Shown here piece by piece: positions 2,056-25,518 of a DNA stretch of 27,597 nt. How positions within the stretch are numbered: the stretch's first letter is position 1; the number at the start of each line of letters is the position of its first letter. The DNA is taken from the NCBI GenBank assembly GCA_030528845.1, contig JAUMYC010000006.1, forward strand, positions 1 through 27,597, written 5' to 3'. The translations under genes and the position numbers were made by a program. The notes below the pieces were generated by a model that was not told the origin of the DNA, ran no database searches, and was given only the letters and a program-made list of their open reading frames with translations. This DNA comes from Eubacteriales bacterium. Its GTDB lineage: Bacteria > Bacillota_A > Clostridia > Christensenellales > Aristaeellaceae.

Positions 2056-3534
2056 TCAGAGCAGGATGCAGATCATGCCGCCCGTGCCCTCGTTGATGAT
2101 CTTCTCGAGCGCCTCGCGCATTTTCGCCTGCGTGCTGTCCGGCATGCGGCCGAGCTTGCCGCTGAGCCCCTCGCGTACCAGCTCCGAGAGCGGCTTGCCG
2201 AAGATGTCCGTCTGCCAGAGCTGCGCGGGGTCGGTCTCAAATTCGCTCAGCAGGAATTTGACCAGCTCCTCGCCCTGCTGCTCGGAGCCCACCAGCGGGT
2301 TCACCTCTGTCTGGATATCTACGCGCATCAGGTGCAGAGAGGGCGCGGTCGCGTTGAGCTTGACGCCGAAGCGGCTGCCCTGTTTGGAGATCTGCGGCTC
2401 CTGCAGGCGCATTTCGTCCATGGAGGGCGGCACCATGCCGTAGCCCGTCTTGCGCGCGCTGGCCAGCGCCTCGGCCACGCGGTCGTATTCGCGCTTGGCA
2501 AAGGCCAGCTCCGTCATCAGCGCAAAGAGCCGCTCCTCGCTGTCGATCTCCTGCCCACAGGACTGGCCGAGCGTCTCGTAGAAAAGGCCGTCGCGCAGGC
2601 GCAGCTCGTAATCGAGCGTGCCGTCGTTGAGCTGCGAGGAGCGCAGCTGCGCCTCCGAGGCCCCTTCGAGCTGCGCCATCGCCGCGCTCATGGCCGGGGC
2701 GTCCTTCATTTTGCGCAGCTGCTTTGCCGCCCCGGTGATGGAATCGAGGATGCCGCTGTAGAGCGGATGCCCCTGCGGCAGCGCGCCCAGCCAGCTCGGC
2801 AGCCGCACGACGGCCTCGCGGATGGGGAATTCCATCAGAACGCCCGCGAGGATATGGCGCAGATCCTCCTCGGTCATCTCCGGCGCGCGCACCGGCACCA
2901 CGGGCACGCCGTAGAGATCCTGCAGGGAAGAGGAGAGCGCCTGCACGGCGGCGGAGTTCGGCTCTGCGCTGTTGAGCACCACGGAAAAAGGCTTAGCAAG
3001 GGCCTTGAGCTCGCGCACCACGCGTGCCTCCGCCTCTTCGTAGGCGGCGCGGGGAAGCGAAGAAAAGCTGCCGTCTGTGGTCACGACCAGCCCGATGGTG
3101 GAATGCTCGTCGATCACCTTGCGCGTGCCGATTTCCGCGGCCTGCTCAAAGGGGATGTCGTGCTCAAACCACGGCGTACGCACCATGCGGCTCTCGCCGT
3201 TTTCCTCCAGCCCCAGCGCGCCGTCGATGAGATAGCCCGCGCAGTCGGCCAGACGGATGCGCGCCACTGTGTTTTCCGCCAGCGGCAGCTCCACGGCCTC
3301 GTCCGGCACAAAGCGCGGCTGCGTGGTCATGATGGTCTTGCCCGCGCCGCTCAGGGGCATCTCGTCGCGCAGGCGCTCGCGCTTTGTCTCCTGCGCGATC
3401 TCCGGCAGCACGGCCAGCTCCATAAAGCGCTTGATGAAGGCCGATTTGCCCGTGCGCACCGGCCCGACCACGCCGATATAGATATCGCCGTCGGTCCTGC
3501 CGGCGATATCGCGATAGATCGAATTTCTGTCCAA
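2056..3534 (-). CDS. spoIVA: Stage IV sporulation protein A (spore coat basement-layer ATPase)
   Basis: SpoIVA is the ATPase that polymerises on the outer forespore membrane and anchors the spore coat. The product is 492 aa, the same length as B. subtilis SpoIVA. The N-terminus (MDRNSIYRDIAGRTDGDIYI) and the P-loop GPVRTGKS (residues 24-31) are typical. The C-terminus ends GGMICILL, which matches the family's hydrophobic membrane-targeting tail. The start is TTG at 3534 behind AGGAGG with about 8 nt spacing. The gene is monocistronic, with its own terminator at 2008-2044. I looked for a sigma-E promoter in the G+C-rich upstream region and could not identify one with confidence. The gene is direct evidence that the organism belongs to an endospore-forming lineage. 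Confidence 0.98.
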   Translation of the reverse strand: MDRNSIYRDIAGRTDGDIYIGVVGPVRTGKSAFIKRFMELAVLPEIAQETKRERLRDEMPLSGAGKTIMTTQPRFVPDEAVELPLAENTVARIRLADCAGYLIDGALGLEENGESRMVRTPWFEHDIPFEQAAEIGTRKVIDEHSTIGLVVTTDGSFSSLPRAAYEEAEARVVRELKALAKPFSVVLNSAEPNSAAVQALSSSLQDLYGVPVVPVRAPEMTEEDLRHILAGVLMEFPIREAVVRLPSWLGALPQGHPLYSGILDSITGAAKQLRKMKDAPAMSAAMAQLEGASEAQLRSSQLNDGTLDYELRLRDGLFYETLGQSCGQEIDSEERLFALMTELAFAKREYDRVAEALASARKTGYGMVPPSMDEMRLQEPQISKQGSRFGVKLNATAPSLHLMRVDIQTEVNPLVGSEQQGEELVKFLLSEFETDPAQLWQTDIFGKPLSELVREGLSGKLGRMPDSTQAKMREALEKIINEGTGGMICILL

Positions 3535-19682: not shown

Positions 19683-20708
19683 GTGAACGAGAGGGAGCTG
19701 CTGCTGTATCATTCGCTCAAAAACCTCCATCTCCTCGAAAAAGCGCCGAAGCGCACGGTCGTGCGCGATCTGCTCGGCCTGCAGGCGCAGTTTTCGCGCA
19801 ATCCGCAGCTGTCGCTCCGGCTGCGCGCGAGCGACTATTCGCCGGAGACGTGGGGCGAAGGCCTCGTGAAGATCTGGTCGCACAGGGGCACGATGCATGT
19901 GATCGACGAAAGCGAGCTCGGCCTGTATTGTTCCGCAGCCGGAAACAACGGCCCCTTCGGGCAGGACTTCTGGGGCATCCCAAAAGAAGAGGCGGAGAAA
20001 TGGGCCCCCTTTATGCAGGCGCAGGTGCTCTCGGGCAACGACACGCGCGAGGGGCTCAAGCGGGCCTGCCTGCGCGCGGGCATGGAAGGCGCGCTGCTGG
20101 AAAAGGTCTTTCACGGCTGGGGCGGGCTGATCAAGGAGATGTGCTGTCGCGGCATGCTCTGCTGCGCGACGGGCACGCAGAAGCGCTATCTCGTGCCGCC
20201 CGCGCCTGTCTTTGAGGACCGGGACAGGGCGCGCGCGGCGTTGATCGAGCGCTATTTTGATGCGTTCGGCCCGGCGACCGTGCAGGATTGCAGCGCGTTC
20301 TTTCTCTGGAAAATGGCGGAGCTCAGGCCGCTGCTGGAGGAGATATTGCCGCGGCTGCATGCGGAGAAGATCGACGGCGCGACCTATTATCACGCGCGGG
20401 CGCTGGACGCGCCGGGGGAGATCCCTCCGTGCGTGCTCGTGCCCGGGTTCGATCAGCTCGTCCTCGGATACCGCGACAGGACGCGCTGCATCGACAGGGA
20501 GCACAACGCAAAGCTGGTCAACGGCGCGGGCATCGTCTTTCCTGCGCTGCTGCTGCGCGGAAGGCTGCGGGCAAAATGGAAGATCGAGGGCGGGCGCATG
20601 GTCGTCACGCCGTTTGAGCGGCTCCTGAAAAAGGACGAAGCAGCCATCCGACGGGAGGTAAAGGCAAAATTCGGCAAAGAGATCGCGCAGATCGAATATG
20701 TGGAATGA
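19683..20708 (+). CDS. AlkZ/YcaQ-like winged-helix DNA glycosylase (HTH_42 family)
   Basis: This 341-aa protein is of the winged-helix AlkZ/YcaQ family. It shows the N-terminal LLGLQAQFSRNPQLSLRLR segment with the catalytic-type Q34-A-Q36 (QxQ) motif, WSHRGTMHVIDE, and the C-terminal VLVPGFDQLVLGYRDR. Characterised members excise bulky alkylated bases or unhook interstrand cross-links, some giving self-resistance to DNA-alkylating antibiotics; others are uncharacterised. The GTG at 19683 follows AAGGGGG with 8 nt spacing, and the protein then starts at the usual point before the first helix. No antibiotic cluster is visible nearby. Confidence 0.88.
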   Translation: MNERELLLYHSLKNLHLLEKAPKRTVVRDLLGLQAQFSRNPQLSLRLRASDYSPETWGEGLVKIWSHRGTMHVIDESELGLYCSAAGNNGPFGQDFWGIPKEEAEKWAPFMQAQVLSGNDTREGLKRACLRAGMEGALLEKVFHGWGGLIKEMCCRGMLCCATGTQKRYLVPPAPVFEDRDRARAALIERYFDAFGPATVQDCSAFFLWKMAELRPLLEEILPRLHAEKIDGATYYHARALDAPGEIPPCVLVPGFDQLVLGYRDRTRCIDREHNAKLVNGAGIVFPALLLRGRLRAKWKIEGGRMVVTPFERLLKKDEAAIRREVKAKFGKEIAQIEYVE

Positions 20709-20714
20709 TTCTGC

Positions 20715-20743
20715 TTGCGGCATTTGCCCGCGCGGTTTATAAT
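20715..20743 (+). promoter_or_regulatory. Sigma-A promoter for the GDPD gene
   Basis: TTGCGG (20715-20720), a 17-bp spacer and a perfect TATAAT (20738-20743), followed by AAAGGAG and the ATG at 20785. Confidence 0.75.
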
Positions 20744-20784
20744 ACCAGAGGGAATACAGCCTTTTTTGAAAGGAGATATACGAT

Positions 20785-21624
20785 ATGGAATTCGATCTGA
20801 GGAAAACAGCGCAGGAGAAGATCATCCTCGTGGCACACAGGGGCACCTGCGGCGGCAACATCCCCTGCAACACCATCACCTCCTATGAGATCGCGCTCCG
20901 GCAGGGCGCGGACATGATCGAGATCGACGTGGATATGTCCAGGGACGGCGAGCTGTTCATCTTCCATCCCGGCATGGAAAAGGCGCATCTGAACATGGAC
21001 GTGCATATCCCGGAGATGACGGCGGCGGAGGTCAAAAAGCTGCGCTTTGTCAACCAGGACGACACGCCCACCCAGTTTGGCCTGAACACGCTCGACGAAG
21101 TGCTCGAACAGTTCAAGGGCCGCTGCTATATCAACTGCGACAAGTTCTGGGAGCATCCGCGCGAGATCTCCGAGCATATCCGCGCGCACGGCATGATGGA
21201 ACAGATCCTCGTCAAGACCTCGCCCAAGAAGGAGCTGTTCGACGTCATCGAGCAGCACGCGCCGGACGTGCAGTATATGGTCATCGTGAAAGAGAACGCC
21301 GAGCAGGTGCATAACGAGCTGCTCAAGCGCAGGATCAACTATATGGGGCAGGAGCTGCTCTTTGAGACGGACGACAGCCCCATGTGCTCGCCGGAATATC
21401 TCGAGCGCCTGCGCAGAGACAACATCCTCTCCTGGGCCAATTCCATCATCTACAACTACAAGGCGCAGCTCGCCGCCGGCCACAGCGACGATACCGCCCT
21501 TTCCGAGGATATGGAAAAGGGCTGGGGCTGGCTCGCACGCCGCGGGTTTGATTTCATTCAGACCGACTGGCCGCTCATGCTCAAGATGTATCTGGAGGAG
21601 CAGGGCCTGCTCTATCGCAAATAA
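20785..21624 (+). CDS. Glycerophosphodiester phosphodiesterase family protein
   Basis: This 279-aa TIM-barrel protein of the GDPD family hydrolyses glycerophosphodiesters to glycerol 3-phosphate and an alcohol, or related lipid head groups. It has H18-R19-G20 at the first strand, E46 and D48 in GADMIEIDVD (metal ligands), and H61 as the second catalytic His. The C-terminal FIQTDWP is also typical. The usual HDxxLxRTT after the second His is replaced by HPGMEKAH, so it is a divergent branch. There is no signal peptide. ATG 20785 has AAAGGAG with good spacing. The gene is followed by a hairpin at 21636-21667 and the alpha/beta hydrolase. Confidence 0.88.
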   Translation: MEFDLRKTAQEKIILVAHRGTCGGNIPCNTITSYEIALRQGADMIEIDVDMSRDGELFIFHPGMEKAHLNMDVHIPEMTAAEVKKLRFVNQDDTPTQFGLNTLDEVLEQFKGRCYINCDKFWEHPREISEHIRAHGMMEQILVKTSPKKELFDVIEQHAPDVQYMVIVKENAEQVHNELLKRRINYMGQELLFETDDSPMCSPEYLERLRRDNILSWANSIIYNYKAQLAAGHSDDTALSEDMEKGWGWLARRGFDFIQTDWPLMLKMYLEEQGLLYRK

Positions 21625-21635
21625 TAGTTCACTTC

Positions 21636-21667
21636 GGAAAAGGGCTGCCCTGCGCGGGCACCTTTTT
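21636..21667 (+). terminator. Possible leaky terminator between GDPD and hydrolase genes
   Basis: TGCCC/GGGCA (21646-21650 with 21656-21660), plus AAAAGG pairing with CCTTTT across a 2-nt bulge, runs straight into CCTTTTTCC. Because the next gene starts 20 bp later and no clear promoter is seen between, it may attenuate rather than end transcription. Confidence 0.5.
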
Positions 21668-21687
21668 CCTGTATAAAGGAGAAGATC

Positions 21688-22692
21688 ATGAGCCATACCG
21701 TAGATACGCTGCATCATCAGCTCTCGTCCGTCTATCCCAAGCCGCTCTCCTTCGATCCGTCCGCGCCGCTCGGGCCGCAGCAGAGGGCGATTCGCGAAAA
21801 ATACGCGCAGCTTTTGAAAATGCCCGAAAAGACGGGCAGGGCGCGGGCGCGCGTGGAATGGGAAGAGACAAAGGACAGGCGCTTTGACGAGGTGCGCTTT
21901 CTGGTGGAGACCGAGCCGGATTTCTTCGTGCCCTGCCATATGCTCCTGCCTAAGGACATCGCGCCCGGGGAAAAGCGGCCCGCCGTCGTGTGCCTGCAGG
22001 GGCATTCCACGGGCATGCATATCTCTCTGGGCCGGCCGAAATACCCGGGAGACAAAAAGAGCATCAGCGGCGGCGACAGGGATTTCGCCATTCAGGCTGT
22101 GGCAAGAGGCTATATCGCCGTGGCGATGGAGCAGAGGGGCTTCGGCGAGCTCAAAAGCGAAGTCTCGGAGCGCGGCTGCCATCATCTCATGGCGCAGTGC
22201 CTGATGACCGGGCGCACGCTGCAGGGCGAACGCATCCACGATGTGATCTGCCTTGTCGATGCGCTCGAGGGCTTTGCGCAGGTGGACATGAGCCGTCTGG
22301 CCGTGATGGGCAACTCCGGCGGCGGCACCACCGCCTATCACGCAGCCTGCCTTGAGCCGCGCTTCAAGGTCGTCATGCCGTCCTGCTCGTTCAATACCTA
22401 CGAGCATTCCATTCTCGCCATGCTGCATTGCATGTGCAATTATGTGCCGGATCTGGCGCTGCATATGGAAATGGCGGATCTGGCCATGTGCATCGCGCCG
22501 AGACCGCTTCTGGTGGTCAACGGCGCGCTGGACGAGATCTTTCCCATCGAAACGGCCAAGGACGCCTTCGCCGTCGTGCGCAGGATCTATGAAGCCGCGG
22601 GCGCGCCGGACAATTGCCGGCATATCATTGGCAAGGAGGGCCACCGCTTCTACGCGGAGGATGCATGGCCCGTCTTCGCGCAGTATATTTGA
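21688..22692 (+). CDS. Alpha/beta hydrolase (dienelactone hydrolase / acetyl-esterase-like)
   Basis: This 334-aa serine hydrolase of the alpha/beta fold has a full catalytic triad: Ser210 in GNSGGG, Asp282 in NGALDEIFP and His319 in GKEGHRF. The VVCLQGHSTGMH segment supplies the oxyanion-hole region. The roughly 80-residue N-terminal extension before the first core strand resembles the Abhydrolase_7 / acetyl xylan esterase-like group. There is no signal peptide. ATG 21688 has AAAGGAG nine nt upstream. It is probably read from the GDPD promoter. The natural ester substrate is unknown. Confidence 0.9.
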   Translation: MSHTVDTLHHQLSSVYPKPLSFDPSAPLGPQQRAIREKYAQLLKMPEKTGRARARVEWEETKDRRFDEVRFLVETEPDFFVPCHMLLPKDIAPGEKRPAVVCLQGHSTGMHISLGRPKYPGDKKSISGGDRDFAIQAVARGYIAVAMEQRGFGELKSEVSERGCHHLMAQCLMTGRTLQGERIHDVICLVDALEGFAQVDMSRLAVMGNSGGGTTAYHAACLEPRFKVVMPSCSFNTYEHSILAMLHCMCNYVPDLALHMEMADLAMCIAPRPLLVVNGALDEIFPIETAKDAFAVVRRIYEAAGAPDNCRHIIGKEGHRFYAEDAWPVFAQYI

Positions 22693-22708
22693 AGGAGCAA
22701 AAAACCGA

Positions 22709-22738
22709 GCATAAATGCGATCCCTCCCGGCTATACTT
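22709..22738 (+). promoter_or_regulatory. Forespore sigma-F/sigma-G-type promoter
   Basis: GCATA (22709-22713) is followed after exactly 15 nt by GGCTATACTT (22729-22738). This fits the B. subtilis sigma-F consensus (GywTA-N15-GGnrAnAnTw) at every position except the weak purine. The -10 also contains TATACT, but no sigma-A -35 lies at 16-18 bp. Transcription would start about 15-20 nt before the TTG start at 22760. Confidence 0.6.
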
Positions 22739-22759
22739 TTGGCTGAGGAGGGATCGCTA

Positions 22760-24022
22760 TTGAATCCGTTTGAAATCATGCCCGGGAAGGGCGCAGAGCT
22801 TCTGATCGACTGGGAGAAGATGTGGGTACGCCCTTACGACAAGCGCAGCGTGGATCCGTACACCCGCACGCGCGTCATCCTGATGAACGGCACGGAGTTT
22901 GAAAACGTCTGGTTTTCGCATCAGTTCTCGCGCAATGTGCAGGACAACGACCTGCGCCGCACGCTCGCGCTCATCCGTCGCAGCGAGCAGCAGCAGCAAA
23001 AGACCATCTCGCATATCAAGCCCGGCGACGAGACCGTGCTGGAGCACACCATCGGCTACGAGCAGCTCGCCGTGGACCTGACGGCGCACCTTGCCAAGCG
23101 CGTGACGGACTGCAATGTCAAAAACGCGCTGGATTTTGCCCTGCTGGAGGATTTTGACCATCTCTATCGCTATGCGGACCTGCTGGATCTGCATTTCCAC
23201 GTCAAGGCGGAAAACCTCGTGGGGCGCTACACGGAGATCATGCCCGGGCGGCCTACGATCGCGCATCACCGCCATCCCTACGACAGCGTGCGCTGGCCGA
23301 TGACCGGCCCCGCGCCCGAGCTGTTCGACGTGCTCGCGGCGAACGTGATCACAGCGGCCGAGCAGCAGACCATGAACTATTACATGAACACGGCTGCGGT
23401 CTATCCCGAAGAGACGGGCAGGCGGCTCTATCAGGAGATCGGCATGATCGAGGAGCAGCATGTGACGCAGTACGGCAGCCTGCTCAACCCGAACATGACA
23501 TGGCTGGAAAACCTGCTGGTGCACCAGTATACGGAGGCGTGGCTCTACTGGAGCATGCTGCAGACCGAGACCGACCGCGAGATCCGCTGCTTCTGGGAGG
23601 CGTGCTTCGGACAGGAGCTGCTGCATCTGCGCATGGCCGAAGAGCTGCTGCAGCGCTATGAGGGCAAGGAATGGCAGCAGGTCATTCCCTGCGGCGAATT
23701 CCCGCAGCCGCTCTGTCTCGAGAGCAATATCGAATATGTGCGCGATATCCTCGGCGGTACGGTGAACAACACCGCCCTGCGCGAGGAATACGCGGACGTG
23801 CGCACGCTGCCCGAGGACGGCGATTTCGCCGAGTATCAGCGCCGGGTGAACGAACCGGCGTGCAACGTGCTCAGCCACAGCGTGATCGAGGAGTATATCC
23901 GCAAAAATGGCCGGGATTATCGATTTGAGACCGCGCCGAACCCCGTGCCGCAGCTGCGCGACCGCACGCACGACGACATCTGCACGGGCCGGCAGAACGT
24001 CTGCCAGCTGCAAAACGCCTGA
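22760..24022 (+). CDS. Uncharacterised diiron ferritin-like protein
   Basis: This 420-aa protein is not one I can name. Residues 190-300 are helical and carry a complete carboxylate-diiron pattern: E201, E231-x2-H234 (EEQH), E259 and E286-x2-H289 (ELLH), with spacings of 30 and 27 residues. That is the E...ExxH...E...ExxH set of ferritin-like proteins. The first 190 residues hold another helical stretch with E95-H96, E101 and E130-x3-H134 and a His-rich IAHHRHPYD. Roughly 120 C-terminal residues are polar with several Cys. There is no signal peptide. The TTG at 22760 follows GGAGGG with 7 nt spacing. A forespore-type promoter precedes it and a strong terminator (24075-24110) follows, so it is monocistronic. 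Possible roles are peroxide or oxygen detoxification or iron handling in the spore. Confidence 0.85.
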   Translation: MNPFEIMPGKGAELLIDWEKMWVRPYDKRSVDPYTRTRVILMNGTEFENVWFSHQFSRNVQDNDLRRTLALIRRSEQQQQKTISHIKPGDETVLEHTIGYEQLAVDLTAHLAKRVTDCNVKNALDFALLEDFDHLYRYADLLDLHFHVKAENLVGRYTEIMPGRPTIAHHRHPYDSVRWPMTGPAPELFDVLAANVITAAEQQTMNYYMNTAAVYPEETGRRLYQEIGMIEEQHVTQYGSLLNPNMTWLENLLVHQYTEAWLYWSMLQTETDREIRCFWEACFGQELLHLRMAEELLQRYEGKEWQQVIPCGEFPQPLCLESNIEYVRDILGGTVNNTALREEYADVRTLPEDGDFAEYQRRVNEPACNVLSHSVIEEYIRKNGRDYRFETAPNPVPQLRDRTHDDICTGRQNVCQLQNA

Positions 24023-24029
24023 GCGGCAC

Positions 24030-24061
24030 AAAAAAACGCCCCCCATTTGAAGGCAGGGCGT
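24030..24061 (-). terminator. Terminator for the leftward reductase-transporter operon
   Basis: ACGCCC/GGGCGT (24036-24041 with 24056-24061) with a 14-nt loop is followed on the minus strand by seven T. It lies beyond the intergenic repeat, about 210 bp after the transporter stop. Confidence 0.6.
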
Positions 24062-24074
24062 CGTAAAACAGTAG

Positions 24075-24110
24075 ATCCGACCTATGGTTTCGACCATAGG
24101 TCGGATTTTT
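24075..24110 (+). terminator. Rho-independent terminator of the ferritin-like gene
   Basis: A perfect 14-bp stem (24075-24088 with 24093-24106) is closed by a TTCG tetraloop and followed by TTTT. Confidence 0.93.
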
Positions 24111-24119
24111 GCAAGATTG

Positions 24120-24195
24120 ACCGGCCTCGCTGACGGAGGGATGGCCAACCCCTCCGCCCCGTGCGGGGCGCCTCCCCTTACACCGGGGAGGCTTT
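24120..24195. repeat. Three-hairpin intergenic repeat element
   Basis: Three adjacent hairpins: CGGAGGG/CCCTCCG (24134-24156), CGCCCC-GTGC-GGGGCG (24155-24170) and GCCTCCCC/GGGGAGGC (24170-24192), with TTT at the end. Very similar GCCTCCCC-TTACACC-GGGGAGGC and GGAGGG...CCCCTCC modules recur between genes in many gut Clostridia, as I recall. Only one copy is in this window. The remaining gene-free bases, 24196-24273, show nothing I can identify. Confidence 0.7.
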
Positions 24196-24273
24196 GACAC
24201 GTCGTAAACCAAAGGCTGATTTATCATATAGAATCATGAGATATGCTCTTGGATAAAGCGTTTTTCTGCTGCG

Positions 24274-25518
24274 TCAGCCCAGCAGCACCGGCAGGAACTG
24301 TTCCACCAGCACCACGGCCAGCAGCGCGGTGGGGTAGGTCGCCGCATAGGCGGAGGCTACCTCCTCCGTGCCTGCCACATGGATGAGCGTGCCCAGCGCG
24401 GGGGTGGAGGTCATGCCTCCGGTGATGGAGCCGAGGTTGTTGAGCAGGTTCAGCTTGAGCACGTATTTTGCGAAAAGATAGCCCGCGACCATGGGGACGA
24501 TCGTCATCACGACGCCGTAGAGGAAATAGACCGGCCGGAAAAACTCCACAAAGCGCGCGCCGCCGGCAATGCCCGCGCCCATCAGGAAGAGGATCAGCCC
24601 CAGCTCGCGCAGTACTTCCAGCAGCTTTTTCTGCGGGGTGAGGCTCAGCGGGCCGACATGCGCGAAATGGCCGAAGACCAGCGACGCGACCAGAGTGCCG
24701 CCGGTCGTGGTCAGGGAAAAGCAGGGGCCGGAAAGGCCCGCGCCCGTGAGCGGGATCTTGACCGAGCCGAGCACGATGCCCAGCGCCGCCGCGAGCGCGA
24801 AGGGGGTGAACCCGAAGCCGTCGATCTGAACGAGCGTTCCGGAATAGGCCCTGCGCGTTTCATCGGCGTTCGCCGAGGAGATCAGCGCGCGCTCCTTGGC
24901 CATGTCCGCTTTGGTGAGCTTGGGGATCAGCTGCACGAACAGCACCACGCCCACTACGCCGAAGAGATAGGCGATGCCGTAGCCCACCGTGACGGCGGCT
25001 TCGAGATCGGCGGTGGCGGTCGTCGCCTTGGCGGCGGAGAAGCCCGGCGTGCTCGTCAGCGCGCCGGAGAGCAGCCCCTGCAGGATGGCGACGAAGGTGC
25101 GGCTGTCGCTCTCCGCGCCGCGGCCGATGAAATAGCACAGCGCGCAGGCCGCGCCTGAGGAGAGGATGATGAGCGCGCCGAGCACGATGTACGATTTAAA
25201 ATTGCGCTTGAGGTTGCCGAAAAACTTCGGCCCGGCGATGAAGCCGACGGCGGTCACGAAAAAGACCAGCCCGATGTTTTCCACGACTTTGAGCGCGTTC
25301 GCGGCGAAGCTCGAGCCGCCGGAGATCAGCGCGGCGTCGAGCTGCGGGTAAAACAGCGCGCCGTAGAGCAGCGCGGCGATAAACACGCCCGCAGAGCCGA
25401 GGCTGATGCCCTTGACGTGCACCGAGCCGAGCAGATAGCCCGCCGCGGAGATGATCAGCAGGGAAAACAGGAGAAACGGCACGCCGCCGACGGAGATCAG
25501 ACTTCCGAACAATTGCAT
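24274..25518 (-). CDS. AspT/YidE-type membrane transporter (aspartate:alanine exchanger fold)
   Basis: This 414-aa membrane protein is made of two homologous halves, each with about five to six helices. A duplicated motif marks them: SGALTSTPG (151-159) and GGMTSTPAL (367-375). This is the layout of the aspartate-alanine exchanger family (AspT, YidE, YbjL). It lacks the central TrkA_C domains of AspT/YidE; only a short hydrophilic linker of about 30 residues (199-228) is present. Members exchange or export small carboxylates; the substrate here is unknown. ATG 25518 follows AAGGAGGGG and lies 16 bp after the flavoprotein stop. Confidence 0.85.
   Translation of the reverse strand: MQLFGSLISVGGVPFLLFSLLIISAAGYLLGSVHVKGISLGSAGVFIAALLYGALFYPQLDAALISGGSSFAANALKVVENIGLVFFVTAVGFIAGPKFFGNLKRNFKSYIVLGALIILSSGAACALCYFIGRGAESDSRTFVAILQGLLSGALTSTPGFSAAKATTATADLEAAVTVGYGIAYLFGVVGVVLFVQLIPKLTKADMAKERALISSANADETRRAYSGTLVQIDGFGFTPFALAAALGIVLGSVKIPLTGAGLSGPCFSLTTTGGTLVASLVFGHFAHVGPLSLTPQKKLLEVLRELGLILFLMGAGIAGGARFVEFFRPVYFLYGVVMTIVPMVAGYLFAKYVLKLNLLNNLGSITGGMTSTPALGTLIHVAGTEEVASAYAATYPTALLAVVLVEQFLPVLLG

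Follow-up and report, generated by a model that had tools for sequence, protein, structure and literature searches.

Which function is served by a protein that combines ferritin-like ligand motifs with a length of 420 residues and falls into no named family? The question is raised by one gene in a 27,597-nucleotide stretch of DNA from a Eubacteriales bacterium (contig JAUMYC010000006.1, assembly GCA_030528845.1), referred to here, as a whole, as the window.

22760..24022, + strand: whole gene of an undescribed ferritin-like family; 420 amino acids, TTG start; at least 7,989 homologous clusters, no match above cut-off in Pfam or NCBIfam.

A first-pass annotation had read the product as a ferritin-like, probably dinuclear-metal spore protein, with E201, E231xxH234, E259 and E286xxH289 forming one four-helix site and residues 1-190 possibly a degenerate half. 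Translation places these residues correctly, together with E101, E130 and H134 and the 30- and 27-residue spacings, and the ferritin-like, probably dinuclear character is supported. The architecture is revised: the protein is predicted to contain two nested ferritin-like four-helix bundles, the inner one inserted in the B-C crossover of the outer one. In the best explanation, to which we give an even chance, such a soluble protein with two dinuclear sites would be encoded by a gene that stands alone behind a forespore-type (sigma-G/F) promoter of its own, and would reduce peroxide or O2 while the spore develops or lies dormant. Computation provides the fold of the inner bundle, the nested pairing of the helices, the conservation, the family and the family-wide promoter enrichment.

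The open reading frame (ORF) 22760-24022 is real, and chance is ruled out. A GGAGGG Shine-Dalgarno sequence (22747-22752) lies ahead of the TTG start, and in alignment A1 this start point is shared by 37 of 40 rows (P0011, P0038 and P0118 start earlier); an in-frame ATG upstream, at 22715, falls within the putative promoter described below. A search from the window protein, with 7,997 candidates scored, puts at least 7,989 clusters in the family, and one from a distant member assigns at least 7,995 of 7,997 scored clusters to the same family. Among the best 120 relatives listed by each search, most are unnamed and the named ones are mostly 'hypothetical protein'; the label 'rubrerythrin' (JGI) stands on 4/120 and 'Ferritin-like domain-containing protein' (UniRef) on 1/120, as far as shortened names show. 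No curated model matches the window protein above cut-off, as the first-pass annotation had anticipated: Pfam gives one match, to a coiled-coil model (E 0.26), and the best NCBIfam match is the iron exporter MbfA over 198-242 (E 0.087). A superfamily label is present for some members, a curated family for none.

Three lines agree in predicting the nesting: the model of the whole chain, a piece of it folded by itself, and couplings between sequence positions. The model shows seven long helices and one broken helix in a single chain. The inner bundle is predicted at 93-238, with candidate ligands E101, D131xxH134 (or E130), E201 and E231xxH234; the outer bundle is predicted to combine 33-86 with 248-301, with candidate ligands E46, E76xxQ79, E259 and E286xxH289. 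The predicted elements, all on the + strand, are as follows.

22856..22936, +: outer helix A, residues 33-59 with a break at 44-48; E46 as candidate ligand, conserved E48 (model, conservation).
22946..23017, +: outer helix B, 63-86; E76xxQ79 (model, conservation, couplings).
23036..23101, +: inner helix A, 93-114; E101 (model, separately folded piece, conservation).
23111..23197, +: inner helix B, 118-146; E130, D131xxH134 (model, separately folded piece, conservation).
23198..23320, +: inner B-C crossover, 147-187; conserved PGRPT and H170-R171 (alignment, model).
23321..23401, +: inner helix C, 188-214; E201, Y208 (model, separately folded piece, conservation).
23411..23473, +: inner helix D, 218-238; E231xxH234 (model, separately folded piece, conservation).
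23501..23566, +: outer helix C, 248-269; E259, H255 (model, conservation).
23576..23662, +: outer helix D, 273-301; E286xxH289 (model, conservation, couplings).
23675..24019, +: C-terminal region, 306-420, no assigned fold; H373, D386, R388 (model, conservation).

Folded alone, the inner-bundle piece gives a four-helix bundle made of two hairpins and a long crossover; for the outer four-helix bundle the evidence is the whole-length model and the couplings only. The 50 listed VIA rows for the whole-length model mostly span ~89-257 or 27-304; mixed rows are few and include 90-305, 91-308, 16-308 and 88-377. A family missing from the VIA lists is not counted as excluded. An internal sequence repeat was sought by hhalign, hairpin against hairpin, and no usable match appeared (all probabilities <10). 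If true, one ferritin-like bundle inserted in another would be an unusual case.

Conservation was counted in an alignment of 334 family members; an alignment of 215 sequences, partly the same ones, agrees. Both sets leave out sequences outside the permitted lengths as well as a small number of listed ids, including two partial gene copies: L101 (genome G159) matches residues 237-416 only, and L102 matches residues 321-416 only, in a genome (G242) that also holds a full copy. Invariant are E101, E130, D131, H134, E201, E231, H234 and E286, as is Y208, seven residues past E201; E259 is kept in 333/334, and H289 in 314/334, with Gln in the other 20. E46 (331/334), E76 (327, with Asp in 6 and Gln in 1) and Q79 (333), overlooked by the first-pass annotation, belong to the same ligand pattern. 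E48 and H255 each occur in 332/334, and H373, D386 and R388 of the C-terminal region are invariant. Invariant columns total 39, none of them a Cys. The candidate helix-B ligand positions deviate in both bundles, with D131xxH134 in the inner one where ExxH is expected and E76xxQ79 in the outer one. The N-terminal half is thus not degenerate, since its inner-bundle ligand candidates are invariant and lie within a bundle that folds alone, and the six residues once assigned to a single site would represent half of each site.

The pairing was tested on the 334-sequence alignment (Neff 127) with mean-field couplings binned by helix pair. The most enriched of the 28 helix pairs are inner A-C (3.6x), outer B-D (3.1x) and outer A-C (2.2x). 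In a register test with antiparallel bands centred on the ligands and 600 shuffles as null, nested pairing collects 28/940 strong pairs (null 14.8; reached by 0/600 shuffles). A third pairing gives 11/955 (null 9.3), its mean coupling being above null (fraction 0.003). Coupling and model tests are not fully independent, because some of these sequences also went into building the model.

With bacterioferritin and mini-bacterioferritin, the window protein shares the four-helix bundle with B-C crossover, and by alignment ends their E, ExxH, E, ExxH register fits each bundle; unlike bacterioferritin, it has two predicted nested bundles per chain, Asp or Gln at helix-B positions and an extra C-terminal region. 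The ligands of mini-bacterioferritin, as given in part of PMC13168243, are Glu16, Glu49, His52, Glu91, Glu124 and His127. Its Tyr98 lies seven past Glu91, just as Y208 follows E201. Against the inner piece, VIA row 9qq5_E has 7-7 as first and 159-137 as last aligned pair, and these offsets place Glu16 on E101, Glu124 on E231 and His127 on H234. In row 9qq4_A the C-end offset is the same but the N-end offset differs by two, which makes end offsets no more than indicative. Nine whole-model rows bear on the outer bundle, spanning ~27-304 (eight with bacterioferritin titles, one titled 'E. coli ferritin mutant-M52H'), with an N offset of 28 in eight and a C offset of 159 in eight; three ferritin-titled rows carry other offsets (29/159 twice, 23/153). 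If we take the bacterioferritin ligands to include E18, E51, H54, E127 and H130, the common offsets place E18 on E46, E127 on E286 and H130 on H289, and a loop three residues shorter would presumably bring E76 and Q79 to the positions of E51 and H54.

Rubrerythrin, nigerythrin and sulerythrin also share the ferritin-like diiron bundle, nigerythrin being row 6 of the inner-piece VIA list. Unlike rubrerythrin, the window protein has no CxxC pair in its sequence and hence no rubredoxin FeS4 domain. The Pfam Rubrerythrin model (PF02915) does not match it at E 1; among 43 members it matches 8 at E up to 1 (best 0.00099; the coiled-coil model matches 11), and two of these matches, viewed in detail, score 11.2 and 12.7 bits versus a cut-off of 22.8. 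The best PDB sequence match is the encapsulated ferritin EncB, whose single-sequence E of 0.0022 is inflated because the alignment opens with HHRH on the His tag of EncB; with profiles, E is 0.26 and 0.9. The E and ExxH of EncB align with E201 and E231xxH234. EncB is a short single-hairpin chain, and its type of two-helix protomer with an inter-protomer site is unlike the many-helix window chain. Manganese catalase (KatB; spore CotG/CotJC) differs as well, with no Pfam or NCBIfam match of the window protein at E 1. Sequence links to known families are weak. In the literature on ferritin-like or rubrerythrin spore proteins and on two-ferritin-domain proteins, the family is unnamed in the titles and abstract openings among the matches listed, and the phrase 'two ferritin-like domains' is absent from the papers found on proteins with two such domains.

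Where and when would the protein be made? Two features precede the gene.

22709..22738, + strand: putative forespore-sigma promoter GCATA-N18-TATACTT; 9/11 consensus letters, family-wide enrichment.
22717..22757, + strand: 11-bp inverted repeat, arms 22717-22727 and 22747-22757, around the -10-like element; its 3' arm contains the Shine-Dalgarno sequence.

The sigma consensus sequences used are those of B. subtilis; those of C. difficile are very similar according to part of PMC3789822. The upstream set comprises 100 regions, 93 of them distinct including that of the window (7 identical ones dropped), and the controls are mechanical ORFs of the same loci, some inside operons. GYATR-N17/18-CATNHTA at >=10/11 letters occurs in 27/93 family upstreams versus 14/484 controls and 53/1,860 shuffles (Fisher p 7e-14, too small a value because controls include operon-internal genes and loci are related by descent); 25 of these 27 sites end 20-41 bases ahead of the start codon, a figure with no positional control. 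The sigma-F consensus is also enriched (8/93 versus 6/484), as is a loose sigma-K pattern whose -10 overlaps (38/93 versus 60/484). Sigma-E sites at one letter off are found in 0/93 and 0/484; sigma-A-like sites occur in 0/93 versus 53/484. These promoters suggest that the protein is probably made in the forespore, in line with the spore role first proposed for it. The inverted repeat could form a hairpin only in read-through RNA, because its 5' arm is upstream of the expected transcription start; a comparable large hairpin is described for B. subtilis sigG in part of PMC5942855. Inverted repeats of >=7 bp over the Shine-Dalgarno sequence occur in 19/93 family upstreams versus 45/484 controls, and a ribosome-site hairpin as conserved control is set aside, since this difference is only modest. 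Rfam gives two matches up to E 1 over 20000-25000, both far below gathering score.

The family is widespread though patchy in Clostridia, carriers numbering 14/299 genomes in one phylum sample (one of the 14 being a partial copy) and 13/245 in one order sample. Of 560 confirmed places, the best 80 bear Clostridia titles (Oscillospiraceae, Lachnospiraceae, Gemmiger and Coprococcus, for example), apart from a single 'uncultured bacterium' and a single 'Firmicutes bacterium'. At 2056-3534 (-), the window encodes a full-length SpoIVA with all three Pfam domains, so its own genome carries a core sporulation gene. SpoIVA is found in 14/14 carriers versus 236/285 non-carriers of the phylum sample, in 11/13 versus 202/232 of the order sample (a different SpoIVA domain as query) and in 47/50 carriers among the best-place loci (50 of 80 loci). 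Anaerocellum and Caldicellulosiruptor are described without spores, and Anaerocellum diazotrophicum is among the listed relatives. That homologues are confined to spore-formers is not established, the SpoIVA data neither supporting nor refuting it.

Around the gene, 80 loci and the window, many ending at contig ends, show no conserved neighbours. Only two neighbour clusters reach >=5 loci: one in 7, which we take to be a glutamate-dehydrogenase-like ORF, has 5 of its ORFs no more than two places away from the gene, and one in 5, presumably an ABC-transporter ATPase, has none near it. Upstream in the window lie a gene with a GDPD domain followed by DUF4996 (20785-21624, +) and an alpha/beta hydrolase gene (21688-22692, +); neither is conserved beside the gene elsewhere.

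Metal binding, the identity of the metal, what each site does, the source of electrons and the chemistry catalysed are all inferred. A forespore sigma (sigma-G/F) would switch the gene on inside the developing spore. The inner site (E101, D131 or E130, H134, E201, E231, H234) would hold two Fe (or Mn), and so would the outer site (E46, E76, Q79, E259, E286, H289). The protein would then reduce peroxide or O2 in developing or dormant spores of anaerobic Clostridia; put more broadly, it would most likely be a forespore-made dinuclear Fe/Mn protein removing peroxide or O2, or holding metal. Part of PMC3789822 includes cotG (manganese catalase), rbr and sodA in the C. difficile sigma-G regulon, and part of PMC8745062 reports two rubrerythrins detected in Moorella thermoacetica spores. 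A forespore dinuclear protein would fit the same task as these proteins. It is doubtful, though conceivable, that the two unlike sites (DxxH inner, ExxQ outer) cooperate as a forespore-loaded protection system for anaerobes' spores; one site would reduce peroxide or O2, and the other would feed electrons or hold a different metal.

Several results weigh against the nested, forespore-made peroxide or O2 reductase. Inner B-D, the fourth pair expected for nesting, is not enriched (1.1x), although 4 of its 5 strong pairs are in register. The strongest single coupling, 196-261, joins inner C to outer C, as the sequential order of the first-pass annotation also predicts, and the 11.2-bit sub-threshold Rubrerythrin match covers 199-307 in homologue L080. 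The promoter of the window itself, with 9/11 letters, is not above controls (26% reach 9), and SpoIVA is not significantly commoner in carriers when samples are pooled (68/73 distinct carriers versus 438/517 non-carriers, p 0.07, some non-carriers being counted in both samples and genome completeness not being reported). A single sequential bundle at 188-301, with residues 1-190 as a separate half, would account for the coupling, the Rubrerythrin match and the spacing E201-E231xxH234-E259-E286xxH289. It is nevertheless very improbable: only nine residues separate the helix that ends at 238 from the one that starts at 248, a short link for a crossover; of the 50 listed VIA rows, not one spans just 188-301; in-register couplings are at null level (7/940 strong pairs, null 9.1); and E101, E130, D131 and H134 are invariant. 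Coupling 196-261 also fits packing between the two bundles.

With the nested fold preferred, its use may still differ. Metal storage or sequestration, the fold keeping Fe or Mn within the spore core, or building a cage in the manner of ferritins and Dps, rather than acting mainly as a reductase, seems rather unlikely; bacterioferritins and Dps are among the closest folds and no electron-transfer partner is conserved nearby in the 80 loci and the window, but two bundles with a 115-residue C-terminal region are unlike a single-bundle cage subunit. Ferritin-like folds also serve enzymes of the oxygenase or desaturase type, and such an enzyme, acting on a specific organic substrate with the second site as structural or redox support, would explain why invariant columns are more numerous than ligands alone need and why D131 and Q79 are non-standard. 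Forespore-type promoters in anaerobes and the lack of conserved biosynthetic neighbours argue against this reading, which is improbable.

Collectively, a family without a curated model would gain a predicted fold, a pair of candidate metal sites and a probable answer to when and where it is expressed, which makes the handling of oxygen and peroxide by the spores of anaerobes directly testable.
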